Of a stretch of DNA of 33,941 bases, positions 1 through 3,694 are shown one piece after another (within the stretch, counting starts at the first letter, position 1; each line of letters begins with the position of its first letter). The DNA comes from Fibrobacter succinogenes (GTDB lineage: Bacteria; Fibrobacterota; Fibrobacteria; Fibrobacterales; Fibrobacteraceae). The stretch covers positions 1 through 33,941 of the forward strand of contig NZ_CACZDK010000047.1 in NCBI RefSeq assembly GCF_902779965.1, read 5' to 3'. Under the pieces are notes generated by a model that made no database searches, was not told where the DNA came from, and worked only from the letters and a program-made list of their open reading frames with translations. Both the position numbers and the translations under genes were made by a program.

Positions 1-642
1 GTCCATGCCGGCAATCATCAAGAGCTGCTTGTACTGCTGCGGAGACTGCGGGAGGGCGTAGAACTTGCCCGGGTTCACGCGGGACGGCACGAGGTAGTCA
101 CGTGCGCCTTCCGGTGTCGATTTGCAAAGGCACGGAGTTTCAATGTTTTCAAAACCGTTAGAATAGAAGAAGTCATAGACGGCCTTGAGGAAGCGGCTCT
201 TGAGGAGGAGCTTCTTCTGGATCCACGGACGGCGGAGGTCCAAATAGCGGTACTGCAAGCGGAGGTCGTCGTTTTCCTTGCATTCTTCGTTCGGGTCGTT
301 GATAGCGAGCGGAGAGGTGAGGGCGGCGTTCAAGATTTCGAGGCTGTCGGCCTTGACTTCGATTTCACCCGTGGCGAGCTTTTCGTTGGTGTTGCCTTCT
401 TCACGGGCGTAGACCTTACCAGTCACGTAAATAACGTATTCGTTACGGAGCTGTTCGGCGGTCTTCAACACATCGGCGTTGTAGTCCGGGTTGAAAACGA
501 TCTGGGTCTTGCCATACTTGTCGCGGAGGTCAACGAAAATCACACCACCATGGTCACGGCGGCGATCCACCCAACCGGCGAGTGTTACGGTCTGGCCAAC
601 ATCTTCCTTGCGAAGCTGGCCGCAGTTATGTGTACGTTTCAT
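1..642 (-). CDS. aspS: Aspartyl-tRNA synthetase, N-terminal part (cut by window edge)
   Basis: Class II synthetase that charges tRNA-Asp (or tRNA-Asx) with aspartate in the cytosol. The first 214 codons are present. The start reads MKRTHNCGQLRKEDVGQTV, followed by GWVDRRRDHGGVIFVDLRD, which is the OB-fold anticodon-binding domain typical of bacterial AspRS. After it come RYLDLRRP and the motif 2-type segment FENIETPCLCKSTPEGARD, which begins the catalytic core. The ATG at 642 is preceded by AAGGAT about 6 nt upstream, a good ribosome binding site. A TATATT box lies about 40 nt upstream on the same strand (complement of 677-682). The remaining core and the bacterial GAD insertion lie outside the window. 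The family assignment is secure; tRNA specificity (discriminating or not) cannot be judged. Confidence 0.95.
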   Translation of the reverse strand, partial: MKRTHNCGQLRKEDVGQTVTLAGWVDRRRDHGGVIFVDLRDKYGKTQIVFNPDYNADVLKTAEQLRNEYVIYVTGKVYAREEGNTNEKLATGEIEVKADSLEILNAALTSPLAINDPNEECKENDDLRLQYRYLDLRRPWIQKKLLLKSRFLKAVYDFFYSNGFENIETPCLCKSTPEGARDYLVPSRVNPGKFYALPQSPQQYKQLLMIAGMD

Positions 643-1025: not shown

Positions 1026-1060
1026 GTTTTATCTCAGCTTATAAAGAGCCCCTATAAGAC
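1026..1060. repeat. CRISPR-like 35-nt direct repeat, copy 1
   Basis: Begins GTTTTATCTCAGCTTATAAA and matches copy 2 (1225-1259) at about 31 of 35 positions. Like type II-C CRISPR repeats it begins GTTTTA, contains a small internal inverted repeat, and has a TATAA-like -10 box near its end. This copy has lost the AAAAT terminus. It immediately follows, on the minus strand, the terminator of the orphan RNA at 1064-1181. Confidence 0.5.
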
Positions 1061-1063
1061 AAT

Positions 1064-1092
1064 AAAAAAAGCCACCCCTTTTCAGGATGACT
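1064..1092 (-). terminator. Rho-independent terminator of the orphan small RNA
   Basis: On the minus strand AGTCATCC pairs with GGGTGGCT (eight pairs including G-U) around a short loop, followed directly by a run of seven T. Confidence 0.65.
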
Positions 1093-1181
1093 AAGCACTT
1101 ACGTGCAGCTGGCCTGTAGGCTCCATAACGCCCCGACGGAATCCGGTTGATCATTTGGTTATGGCCATCACAACGTTCATC
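1064..1181 (-). ncRNA. Orphan small RNA with promoter and terminator
   Basis: A minus-strand transcript of about 118 nt is predicted from a strong promoter to a rho-independent terminator, with no open frame. Visible pairings are GGCCATAAC with GTTATGGAGCC as the long closing helix, a CCG...CGG hairpin inside it, a GCC-TACA-GGC hairpin, a GCAC-GTAA-GTGC tetraloop hairpin, and the terminator stem. The family is not recognised; it does not match the conserved cores of tmRNA, SRP RNA, RNase P RNA or 6S RNA as I know them. It lies between two CRISPR-like repeats downstream of cas1/cas2 remnants, so a tracrRNA or scaRNA relic is possible, but no anti-repeat was found inside it. Confidence 0.5.
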
Positions 1182-1187
1182 ATCCAT

Positions 1188-1216
1188 AATATATCATTTT
1201 TCACAAGGAAAGTCAA
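1188..1216 (-). promoter_or_regulatory. Promoter of the orphan small RNA
   Basis: On the minus strand TTGACT (1216-1211), a spacer of exactly 17 nt, then TATATT (1193-1188). This is close to the sigma-70 consensus and predicts a start near 1181. It begins 8 nt beyond the CRISPR-like repeat copy 2. Confidence 0.6.
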
Positions 1217-1224
1217 TACCCCAT

Positions 1225-1259
1225 GTTTTATCTCGGCTCATAAAGAGCCCCTATAAAAT
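1225..1259. repeat. CRISPR-like 35-nt direct repeat, copy 2
   Basis: Begins GTTTTATCTCGGCTCATAAA and ends CCCCTATAAAAT, with an internal GGCTC/GAGCC inverted repeat. GTTTTA at one end and TAAAAT at the other is the layout of type II-C repeats such as that of Campylobacter jejuni, where the 3' end carries a -10 box. The sense strand is plus, opposite to the cas remnants, which also occurs in type II-C loci. Only two copies exist and they are 199 nt apart, so this is not a working array. Confidence 0.5.
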
Positions 1260-1281
1260 CAAAATCGTTTTCACTCCTATA

Positions 1282-1369
1282 AGAATCTATGAGGAAGGAC
1301 GGTAAACTCCTTCATACGGATTCGAAAATCCCAAGCGGCCCACCATTTCCGCTTACTCACATAGATTCT
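1282..1369 (-). ncRNA. Candidate cloverleaf-like structured RNA
   Basis: On the minus strand a perfect 10-bp helix (AGAATCTATG, 1369-1360, with CATAGATTCT, 1291-1282) encloses three hairpins in series: AAGCGG/CCGCTT with a 10-nt loop (1354-1333), GGATT-TTCG-AATCC with a stable UUCG-type loop (1331-1318), and GAAGGA/TCCTTC (1313-1294). The predicted transcription start falls on the first base of the closing helix. It is not a tRNA: the closing helix is 10 bp, there is no CCA and no D or anticodon arm of normal size. Function unknown. It sits in the CRISPR scar between the cas2 remnant and repeat copy 2. Confidence 0.5.
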
Positions 1370-1376
1370 AATAATG

Positions 1377-1405
1377 AATATACCTTTATTTATGCGGGTT
1401 CGCAA
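1377..1405 (-). promoter_or_regulatory. Promoter of the cloverleaf-like RNA
   Basis: Minus strand TTGCGA (1405-1400), 17-nt spacer, TATATT (1382-1377). The predicted start is 1370-1369, exactly at the base of the 10-bp helix. Confidence 0.5.
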
Positions 1406-1464
1406 GCGTTTCTCTTGTGAAAAAATCAGAAAAATTGGATAAAAAGCGAGCAAGTGAGTGTCGC

Positions 1465-1521
1465 GACAAAATGCTTGCATTTTGTCATGACCGAACGCAG
1501 CCTGCGGACGCATTTTGCGTC
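1465..1521. repeat. Cluster of short perfect hairpins
   Basis: Three adjacent inverted repeats: GACAAAATGC/GCATTTTGTC (1465-1486), CGCAG/CTGCG (near 1495-1506) and GACGCA/TGCGTC (1507-1521). The arrangement, a purine-rich GCGAGCAA lead, a hairpin with a central TT, then a GACGC...GCGTC hairpin, is repeated with different sequence at 21633-21734. It overlaps the decayed end of the cas2 remnant, so it may have inserted there. Confidence 0.6.
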
Positions 1522-1715
1522 AATCCTGTGATTTTGGGCCATTTTTTTGGAGCCTTGGTGTTGTGTTGCCGAAGTGGCTGTATATTTCGGCAAATTCCCT
1601 CAGGATGCATACCGTGGAGCGGGGCTCGATTATATTGGCGATTCGTCGTCGGTGAGTCCTTATGTCTGCCGCTTTTGCAGTGCCTCGGAAAATCGAAAAT
1701 TGTTACAACCCACAT
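1485..1715 (-). pseudogene. cas2: Decayed cas2 remnant
   Basis: Cas2 is the small ferredoxin-fold partner of the Cas1 spacer integrase. The frame opens with MWVVTIFDFPR, which matches the first beta strand of type II Cas2 proteins (pattern MW-hydrophobic-FD-P). The remainder does not follow the family: it is shorter than normal, and a PEG-type segment (HPEGICRNI) appears far too early, so an internal deletion and frame changes are likely. The ATG at 1715 overlaps the end of the cas1 remnant by 13 nt, the normal cas1-cas2 layout. The rest of the frame runs into a hairpin cluster. The call rests on about 11 residues plus position. Confidence 0.55.
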
Positions 1716-1942
1716 GATAACCTCGGGTATGAAATGTTCTTGGTTTCGCCCATGAAAAATTTGACGACGGAGGCGGTGGTGTAGGTGAGACATGTTCCTA
1801 ACTGCACCATCTGTTCCCCGAAGGGAATGTTGGTGTAGAATAGTTCCAGAAAGGATGCCTTGACTTCTTTGTCCAACTTTTTCTTTTTTGCTGCGTGTAA
1901 TTTGTACGCAATCTGATCGATGAATGGACGGTAGGGTTCCAT
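1703..1942 (-). pseudogene. cas1: C-terminal fragment of type II Cas1
   Basis: Cas1 is the CRISPR spacer-acquisition integrase, normally about 290-310 residues. Only the last ~80 residues remain. MEPYRPFIDQIAYKL corresponds to the conserved (L/F)MEP(Y/F)RP-x-VD segment, DKEVKASFLELF to the following helix, and TTASVVKFFMGETKNISYP to the C-terminal region of type II Cas1. The in-frame codons just upstream (IED before the methionine) also fit the family, but a stop at 1976-1978 closes the frame, so the N-terminal domain and most catalytic residues are missing. The break coincides with the promoter region of the divergent ATPase gene. It cannot encode an active integrase. Confidence 0.8.
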
Positions 1943-1953
1943 GATGTCCTCTA

Positions 1954-1990
1954 TTGACTTTTTTAACTTAATAAGTTAAATTTAAGTTAA
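1954..1990 (+). promoter_or_regulatory. Promoter with operator-like palindrome for the AAA ATPase gene
   Basis: TTGACT (1954-1959), 17-nt spacer, TAAATT (1977-1982). The spacer holds the perfect inverted repeat TTAACTT-AAT-AAGTTAA (1963-1979), and a third half-site AAGTTAA lies at 1984-1990 over the expected start. A regulator bound there would block polymerase. The same DNA carries the broken end of the cas1 frame on the other strand. Confidence 0.5.
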
Positions 1991-2005
1991 ACGGGCGAGG
2001 TGAGC

Positions 2006-3694
2006 ATGGGCGGTATTACCTACAAGACGATTAACGGCAAGCGTTATGCATACTACCAGTGGACTGAAAACGGAAAACAGCATAGCCGTCGTGTGAAGGA
2101 TGACGAGTTCTTGGAACTTTCCGCAAAAATTGCTGCGGAGCGTTCTGCTGTTTATTCTGCGGCTCCCCAGTTCAAGACTGATGTGAAAATCGGGTCGCAG
2201 TTGACGCGTTTCTATGCTTCTGTGATGAAGTGGAAAAAACGTGAAATTTTTAGCGTCCTTCATGATTATGTCTATGGTGAAAGTAACGACCGTGTTATGA
2301 TTCTCTATGGGCTTCGTCGCACGGGAAAGACGACTCTAGTCCGTCAGCTTATCGGTGAAATGTCGTCAGAAATGCAGATGAAGACGGCGTTTGTTCAGCT
2401 GAGTTCTCGTCATTCGTTGGCCGAAGTCAATCACGATCTTAAGTTGCTGGAATCGTTGGGCTATCGCTATGTCTTTGTGGATGAAGTGACGATGCTTCAA
2501 GATTTTATCGAGGGGGCCGCACTTTTTTCCGATATTTTTGCTGCAAGCGGAATGAAAATTGTGCTTTCGGGAACGGATTCTTTGGGTTTTGTGTTTTCTG
2601 AGGATGAACAACTTTATGACCGTTGCTTTTTGCTGCATACAACTTTCATTCCTTATCGTGAATTTGAAAATGTTCTTGGTGTGGTCGGAATAGATCGATT
2701 TATTGAGTTTGGGGGCACCATGAGCATGGGTGGGAGTAATTACAATACAGATAGATTTACCTTCGCTACAAAGAAAAGTGCTGACGAGTATGTGGATTCT
2801 GCGATTGCTCGCAATATCCAGCATTCGCTAAAATGCTACCAGCATGAGGGGCATTTTCGTTCGTTGCAAGAACTCTACAATGCGGGTGAATTGACGAGCG
2901 CCATCAACCGCGTTGTGGAGGATGGGAATCACCGGTTTACCATTGACGTTTTAACCCGGAATTTTAAGTCCGGTGATTTGAAAAGGTCTCAAGCGAATCT
3001 TCGCCGCGACAGGTTTAAACCTACGGATGTTTTGGATCGTGTTGACATAGATTCTGTTACAAAACGGTTAAAAGAACTATTGCTGATCAAGGACAGGGAG
3101 GAACAGTCTGTTGCCATAAATGAATCGCACAGGGCCGAAATCAAGGAATATTTGGATTTGCTTGACCTTACTTGCGATATAGATGTTGTCAACATGTCTA
3201 GCTTGAATGAACAGCGTTCTCGGACGGTTCTTTCGCAGCCGGGGCTTCGGTTTGCTCAAGCCTCGGCACTGATTCAGAGTCTGTTGCTTGATGAAACGTT
3301 TAGAGACATCTCAATTGCCGAACGCATGTCTATCGAGAAACGGATCCTCGATGAAATTCGTGGACGTATGATGGAAGAAATTGTCTTGCTAGAAACGAAA
3401 ATGGCTCGACCTGATATGCAAGTTTTTCAATTGCAGTTTGCAGTCGGGGAGTTCGATATGGTTGTTTTTGACCCACGTAATGCTTGTTGTGAAATTTACG
3501 AGATTAAGCATTGTGGCCAAATGGCAAAGGAACAGTGCCGCCATTTGCTTGATTCTAAGAAATGCGCGGATACGGAATTCCGTTACGGAAAAATTCATAG
3601 CAAGAACGTGATTTACCGTGGAAATGCGGGAACTTTTGGCGAAATCCGTTATTTGAATGTCGAGGATTATCTGAAGAGCCTGCGAAACAACTGA
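2006..3694 (+). CDS. AAA-type ATPase with C-terminal PD-(D/E)XK-like nuclease site
   Basis: A 562-residue protein. The first ~50 residues (ITYKTINGKRYAYYQWTENG, then a basic helix) resemble the DNA-contacting N-terminal segment seen in some transposases. The P-loop is GLRRTGKTT (Lys ~108), Walker B is YVFVDEVTML, and the sensor-like strand is IVLSGTDS, as in the AAA_14 group of ATP-binding proteins. The C-terminus has D484 in GEFDMVVFD and E499-I-K501 in EIYEIKH, a PD-(D/E)XK-like arrangement. ATG at 2006 is preferred over GTG at 2000 because GAGGTGA lies just upstream at the right distance. It stands alone, divergent from the cas remnants, with its own promoter. Proteins of this class are frequent in rumen Fibrobacter and Bacteroidetes; their role is unclear, with mobile-element or defence work plausible. 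Confidence 0.75.
   Translation: MGGITYKTINGKRYAYYQWTENGKQHSRRVKDDEFLELSAKIAAERSAVYSAAPQFKTDVKIGSQLTRFYASVMKWKKREIFSVLHDYVYGESNDRVMILYGLRRTGKTTLVRQLIGEMSSEMQMKTAFVQLSSRHSLAEVNHDLKLLESLGYRYVFVDEVTMLQDFIEGAALFSDIFAASGMKIVLSGTDSLGFVFSEDEQLYDRCFLLHTTFIPYREFENVLGVVGIDRFIEFGGTMSMGGSNYNTDRFTFATKKSADEYVDSAIARNIQHSLKCYQHEGHFRSLQELYNAGELTSAINRVVEDGNHRFTIDVLTRNFKSGDLKRSQANLRRDRFKPTDVLDRVDIDSVTKRLKELLLIKDREEQSVAINESHRAEIKEYLDLLDLTCDIDVVNMSSLNEQRSRTVLSQPGLRFAQASALIQSLLLDETFRDISIAERMSIEKRILDEIRGRMMEEIVLLETKMARPDMQVFQLQFAVGEFDMVVFDPRNACCEIYEIKHCGQMAKEQCRHLLDSKKCADTEFRYGKIHSKNVIYRGNAGTFGEIRYLNVEDYLKSLRNN

Follow-up and report, generated by a model that had tools for sequence, protein, structure and literature searches.

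On the minus strand of positions 1026 to 1951, the window (all 33,941 bases of contig C47 from a Fibrobacter genome) is likely to preserve the dead remnant of a gene-cassette array that belonged to a Cas9-less Cas1-Cas2 system. According to this interpretation, Cas1-Cas2 without a CRISPR effector probably builds arrays of gene cassettes in which whole genes sit as giant spacers, giving Fibrobacterota and Bacteroidota a CRISPR-derived counterpart of the integron that stands mechanistically between casposons and CRISPR adaptation. The window itself is only a dead example, and the interest lies in the relatives to which it led.

Remnants in the window

The features are collected in Table 1. The cas1 fragment that the sequence-only reading had placed on the minus strand was borne out by HMM searches, as the frame 1942-1703 matched TIGR03639 with an E value of 5.1e-8 (profile positions 218-277 of 278) and the fragment matched PADLOC Cas1_II with an E value of 1.5e-13. 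A six-frame search carried the homology beyond the frame start at 1942 to 1951. The frame from 1715, read earlier as a Cas2 start decaying after about 11 residues, had no Cas2 HMM match on its own in the profile search, and the Cas2 identity therefore rests on alignment, in which about 17 residues of the start MWVVTIFDFPRHCKSGR agree with an intact relative and the C-terminal half is picked up again in a different frame (THRRRIANIIEPRSTVCIL...REFAEIYSHFG). Both 1522-1660 and 1660-1952 align to relatives, with about 94 bp absent between them. The 13-nt overlap of the two genes (1703-1715), previously taken to mark the ends of one operon in decay, is identical in the intact locus L062 and can be accepted as such.

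Table 1. Features of the eroded locus and its neighbours in the window
Feature	Position	Strand	Basis
aspS, 5' part; fixed chromosomal flank at the distal end of the array	1-642	-	Translation; 98% identity in G019:C66
Leader-distal repeat GTCTTATAGGGGCTCTTTATAAGCTGAGATAAAAC	1026-1060	-	Profile of relatives' repeats, E 2.1e-9, 35.7 bits; distal flank as in the G019 array
164-bp cassette, small-RNA-like, with own predicted promoter (1216-1188) and terminator (1092-1070)	1061-1224	-	Comparison with G001:C35; promoter and terminator scan
Leader-proximal repeat GATTTTATAGGGGCTCTTTATGAGCCGAGATAAAAC	1225-1260	-	Profile E 1.7e-9; one mismatch to the first repeat of intact L062
96-bp segment bounded by 14-bp inverted ends (TATAAGAATCTATG / CATAGATTCTAATA), separating the leader from the first repeat	1278-1373		Inverted-repeat search
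Leader, with sigma70-like promoter TTGCGA-17-TATATT at 1405-1377	1375-1444	-	82-90% identity to leaders of intact loci; promoter scan
Dispersed genomic repeat of about 80 bp, inserted at the 3' end of cas2 and separating it from the leader	1445-1524		Multi-copy in many Fibrobacter genomes
cas2 remnant that has lost about 95 bp near 1660 and has small indels as well as a changed frame	1525-1715	-	Nucleotide alignment to intact G030 cas2
cas1 C-terminal remnant, 84 codons from the break	1703-1951	-	TIGR03639; 94.9% identity to Cas1 of Cas9-less L062
Break point and ATPase upstream region, foreign to the cas locus	1952-1999	+	cas-locus homology stops at 1951/1952
AAA_14 ATPase gene, 564 aa, abutting the break; neighbour outside the system	2000-3694	+	PF13173 E 1.6e-11; also in G001

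It was likewise confirmed that the Cas1 N-terminus is lost and that an ATPase gene begins beside the break, which is common to the window and to genome G001. The stretch 1951-2000 precedes ATPase genes elsewhere in G022, G014 and G024. The coding region of this ATPase recurs together with about 50 bp upstream at unrelated places in G022, G014, G024 and G034, and the gene may be mobile by itself. The damage can be placed in a partial order. Both the break at the ATPase gene, with which the cas1 N-terminus disappeared, and the dispersed repeat inserted at the cas2 end (in G001:C72) are shared with G001, whereas the deletion in cas2 is not. The N-terminal three quarters of cas1 were lost at the ATPase break and cas2 was hit by the dispersed repeat, which is absent from intact loci, and about 95 bp of cas2 were lost afterwards in the lineage of the window. 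Two dispersed repeats in the window, at 837-955 and 1442-1524, have many copies across Fibrobacter genomes, the latter being the one that disrupts cas2. Locus L134 (G031:C162) has cas1 split into two frames and a deletion of about 97 bp in cas2 at a place other than that of the window, hence decay of cas1-cas2 recurs independently.

The interval 1485-1976 given earlier does contain the cas remnants, but the feature extends left to 1026 with a leader and repeats. The leaders matched by that of the window stand directly after cas2 in intact loci, and each is followed by a repeat. Since leader and first repeat are only about 10 nt apart in all intact loci, the 96-bp segment separating them in the window is a probable later insertion; no second copy of it was seen among the relatives listed. 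At the aspS neighbourhood, where a synteny comparison with relatives having an intact cas9-cas1-cas2 had been suggested, G019 (contig C66) has a leader and repeat array of the same kind at an equal distance from aspS and with a different insert (L202), headed by the promoter stretch of the 164-bp cassette.

In the eroded array of the window the single cassette lacks the end motif described below. The predicted promoter of this cassette reads TTGACT-17-TATATT and its terminator is U-rich; in G001:C35 the cassette again lies between two repeats, but inverted and with other ends. Units of this sort may make up a family of cassette-borne small RNAs. The predicted fold of the 164-bp cassette is no better than those of shuffled sequences (z -0.61), and an Rfam scan of the window gave no match. 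The only other Cas1 of the same genome (L001, G000:C29, 36515-37285) adjoins a regular array whose repeat TCTACAAGAGTAGA resembles a type V-A repeat, suggesting that the strain may have Cas12a immunity.

Cas9-less loci in Fibrobacter and Bacteroidales

The sequence-only reading had taken the fragments for what is left of a type II-C CRISPR-Cas operon whose cas9 is gone; on this view the operon would have been an ordinary one and its spacer array would have disappeared as well. The affiliation of the protein speaks for this, as the intact L062 Cas1 scores 276 bits against TIGR03639 (cut-off 120), which places it in the type II family, and the leader and repeats look like CRISPR parts. The closest relatives of the fragment, however, are intact orthologues in Fibrobacter loci without cas9 or a regular array, with identities of 94-95% (L062, L131 and L133) and 93.6% (L059 and L132), while only 28-36% is shared with the Cas1 of cas9-bearing Fibrobacter type II-C loci. 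No Cas9 was found beside a Fibrobacter cas1 of the Cas9-less kind, whereas Cas9 does adjoin the other kind, and no Cas9 match was obtained anywhere in five genomes with Cas9-less loci (G007, G021, G022, G031 and G036). Both kinds of Cas1 are present in G018 and G030, side by side. The claims of a type II-C operon and of a departed cas9 are accordingly not supported, and an ordinary type II-C scar is regarded as highly improbable.

As a control for ordinary arrays, 24-mers spaced 50-90 bp apart were sought beside type II loci. Ordinary arrays were recovered beside most Cas9-bearing loci, those of Fibrobacter included, but none made of the locus's own repeat beside the Cas9-less Fibrobacter loci, the only other call being an unrelated three-copy repeat in L066/L135.

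The Cas9-less layout occurs in at least ten Fibrobacter loci and consists of cas1-cas2, a leader of about 70 bp with a promoter, a 35-nt repeat, and further spaced repeats with genes between them. The cas2 stop overlaps the leader, which contains TTGCGA-17-TATATT and is followed some 10 nt on by the repeat GTCTTATAGGGGCTCTTTATGAGCCGAGGTAAAAC or its variants. Later repeats have the same orientation and stand roughly 190-3,600 bp apart rather than 30, with a median of 550 bp for 65 clean inserts. Several loci are MAG contigs, some of which end inside the array. Hairpin covariation in the repeat was not significant and did not exceed that of shuffles. A 23-base core of the repeat is found in 30 of 41 Fibrobacter genomes, with 0 matches in any of them for the reversed control pattern, and repeats number 5.9 per genome where cas1 is intact or a remnant versus 1.7 where it is lacking (p 1e-4). 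Many arrays are orphans, having a leader without cas genes; in some of these a 3' part of cas2 is still present ahead of the leader, the type of scar seen in the window.

In intact relatives cas1 and cas2 are adjacent, the leader leads directly to the repeat, and the repeats of an array are homogeneous; the window has broken remnants only. Residues E149, H206 and E221 of Cas1 (L062 numbering) are invariant in 13 proteins and align with the Cas1 structures 4zkj and 5xvn from Streptococcus and Enterococcus. With dN/dS values of 0.04-0.12, the cas1 of Cas9-less loci is under strong purifying selection. No conserved third gene was found upstream of cas1 and no gene was common to unrelated loci, the neighbours shared there coming from orthologous sites, apart from one pair of remotely similar ATPases.

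Cas9-less Cas1 proteins of the same kind were also found in Bacteroidales sampled from horse faeces, the rumen and elsewhere. In locus L125 seven repeats are separated by 29, 983, 189, 2,075, 434 and 1,174 bp, in L113 three are separated by about 550 and 2,300 bp, and L083 and L071 have two each. The first interval of L125 (8379-8479) is an ordinary 29-bp spacer, and cas1 and cas2 of this locus appear to be fused by a deletion. The insert-size rule is consequently not absolute in Bacteroidales, and the array is a possible intermediate between a CRISPR and a cassette array. Among the best-scoring loci of a scan of 393 Bacteroidales genomes, which were the ones read, Cas9 is absent from G091, whose repeats lie 3.5 kb apart, and from G076, while G186, G286, G101 and G279 have Cas9 and 29-30-bp spacers; no second repeat was present in the DNA seen for G076 and G072. 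In the Cas1 tree the Cas9-less proteins of Fibrobacter and Bacteroidales fall into two groups, and they may nevertheless constitute one clade, as a single clade was not rejected (AU p 0.41). In plasmid and viral collections, Cas1 was found only at less than 60% identity to the query, and no array of the same kind was seen.

Inserts, repeats and the case for integration

The segments between repeats are rich in genes, with open reading frames of at least 100 aa in 42 of 82 versus 3.9 in shuffled segments, although some inserts have no clear gene. These frames run in the leader sense in 31 cases and against it in 11 (p 0.003). Few known domains were recognised among 58 cassette proteins: DUF7675 in three, Fib_succ_major in two, and single matches that include PIN, RelB, a phage Mu F-like protein and a phage tail-type protein. 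PADLOC added one candidate-defence match set and one LeoBC match. Given the few domains and the mixture of phage, PIN, RelB and PADLOC matches, the cargo looks like a mix of accessory genes, mostly of unknown function. A small gene of the DUF7675 kind forms a cassette in at least five genomes (L156, L159, L158, L164, L186 and L160), with differing insert ends and always in the leader sense. The 3-kb cassette of G060 (L153, 10290-13363) contains Mu-like head (gpF) and virion morphogenesis genes, the head gene being 32% identical to that of phage Mu, and is to all appearance a phage fragment captured in a Cas9-less array.

The repeats belong to the array rather than to the cassette. In G060 eight unrelated inserts of 214-3,074 bp are enclosed by nine identical repeats; five identical repeats occur within an array of G036 and four in G022, and 35% of repeat pairs are identical within arrays versus 1% between arrays of one genome. 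Such array-specific and cassette-independent repeats are the outcome expected from duplication of one template. Moreover, the near-identical locus of G064 and G031, which share an 881-bp cassette with 100% identity, differs at the leader end by one 363-bp cassette and one exact repeat present in G064; G064 may have gained them, or G031 may have lost them by recombination between repeats. Cassettes also turn over at fixed sites, as the distal flanks of arrays in G005, G014 and G001 are 95-98% identical and their cassettes differ (361, 807 and 191 bp, respectively), and a second site in six genomes likewise has different contents at the same distal flank.

A short motif marks the insert ends. 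Among 62 non-redundant cassettes these read 5'-NNAA and TTNN-3' (p 8e-11 for AA and 8e-8 for TT), with A at the third and fourth base inward at frequencies of 0.60 and 0.68 at one end and 0.56 and 0.73 at the other. The leader side of the first repeat is devoid of the NNAA motif, showing that it belongs to the inserts. The symmetry of this preference fits two Cas1 active sites handling one end each. Related cassettes recur with different ends and are inverted in three comparisons, including that of L113 with L125, which fits the capture of linear fragments.

These observations bear on the possibility that the arrays are relics of an old II-C lineage that lost cas9, bloated by random insertions and spacer loss, with genes present by accident and Cas1-Cas2 no longer acting. 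Relics would account for the many arrays that are not only orphan but also short, with degenerate distal repeats, for the broken cas1-cas2 copies of G000, G001, G031 and G007, and for the 29-bp spacer retained in L125. They agree poorly with the purifying selection on cas1, the nine identical repeats around unrelated genes in G060, the symmetric motif at insert ends, the clean one-cassette difference of G064 and G031, and the absence of 30-bp spacers, the smallest of the 65 clean Fibrobacter inserts measuring 191 bp. A relic origin is thus considered unlikely.

It is also conceivable that the cassette arrays are real and that their cassettes were moved by homologous or other recombination between repeats or arrays, Cas1-Cas2 having at most seeded the repeats. 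Identical direct repeats invite such exchange, related cassettes are found in distal and orphan arrays, and the lipoprotein cassettes of G062, G002 and G022 are rearranged with shared ends. The last had been considered as a clean transfer and were dropped as proof of integration when rearrangement at microhomology was seen. Recombination between repeats cannot, however, make new insert ends, whereas cassettes of the DUF7675 type and those resembling small RNAs recur with different ends, the latter in both orientations; the NNAA/TTNN motif is part of the inserts, not of the repeat, and an intact and selected cas1-cas2 adjoins the leader. Recombination as the main mover of cassettes is accordingly judged quite unlikely, slightly more so than a relic origin.

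Insertion by Cas1-Cas2 remains the preferred explanation. On the grounds of the one-cassette difference between G064 and G031 and the conserved catalytic residues, we infer integration activity at the junction of leader and repeat; the strand chemistry, the source of donor DNA, the use of the promoter and any benefit to the host are inferred as well. A working system, as represented by the intact relatives and not by the window, consists of cas1 and cas2 followed by a promoter-bearing leader and a partly palindromic 35-nt repeat. Cas1-Cas2 would capture linear double-stranded DNA of roughly 0.2-3.5 kb, preferring A as the third and fourth base counted from either end, and would have to do so without measuring the length of the insert. 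The two DNA ends would then be joined to the two strands of the leader-proximal repeat, with gap repair duplicating the repeat. With each event a single gene or small-RNA unit would come to lie beside the leader promoter, facing either way, and older cassettes would be pushed away; orphan arrays with their own leader could be extended in trans by the same enzyme. The array would in this way serve as a platform for gene capture and expression, similar to an integron, instead of an immune memory.

Implications and comparison with known systems

The protein families involved are known, and the platform itself is, as far as can be told, of no known kind. No description of such arrays was found in the full texts searched, which were mostly open-access journal papers, and the 2025 CRISPR classification is silent on cassettes and integrons. 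If the proposed function is correct, Cas1-Cas2 would have a second natural career beside immune memory, capturing genes and lining them up behind a promoter with no RNA guides, and rumen and gut bacteria would possess an integron-like route of gene acquisition. The ruler of about 30 bp would not be a fixed property of the Cas1-Cas2 fold, and the proposed path from casposases to CRISPR adaptation would become directly testable with living enzymes. The system might also offer a tool for inserting gene-sized DNA at a defined site without a guide RNA, and it would account for the cas1 and cas2 fragments and lone repeats scattered in Fibrobacter genomes.

The type II-C adaptation module resembles the present system in its TIGR03639 Cas1 with catalytic residues, its Cas2, a leader followed directly by a partly palindromic repeat of about 35 nt, and homogeneous repeats. 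Different from that module, Cas9 does not adjoin the genes here, gene-bearing inserts of about 190-3,600 bp take the place of spacers of about 30 bp, and the leader promoter is followed by open reading frames.

The integron, composed of IntI, attI, the Pc promoter and attC sites, is similar in having a promoter before a changing row of cassettes that turn over at a fixed chromosomal site, and in a cargo of mostly small genes of unknown function and toxin-antitoxin genes that mostly follow the sense of the promoter. The attC sites of integrons differ from cassette to cassette, whereas here the repeats are owned by the array and identical within it, and the cassette ends vary and occur in either orientation. 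An integron integrase is also lacking, as none of the 41 Fibrobacter genomes has a match over the TIGR02249 cut-off, and the one match listed per genome spans only about 50 C-terminal positions.

Casposons are alike in that a Cas1-family integrase puts long DNA into a preferred site and duplicates the target, as is proposed for the present arrays; with casposases the duplication amounts to 14-15 bp (PMC6977970). The arrays described here differ from casposons in that a type II Cas1 acts together with Cas2 in the proposed mechanism, no conserved polymerase or other third gene is found next to cas1, the inserts carry no terminal inverted repeats beyond two bases, and many inserts stand in a row at one leader.
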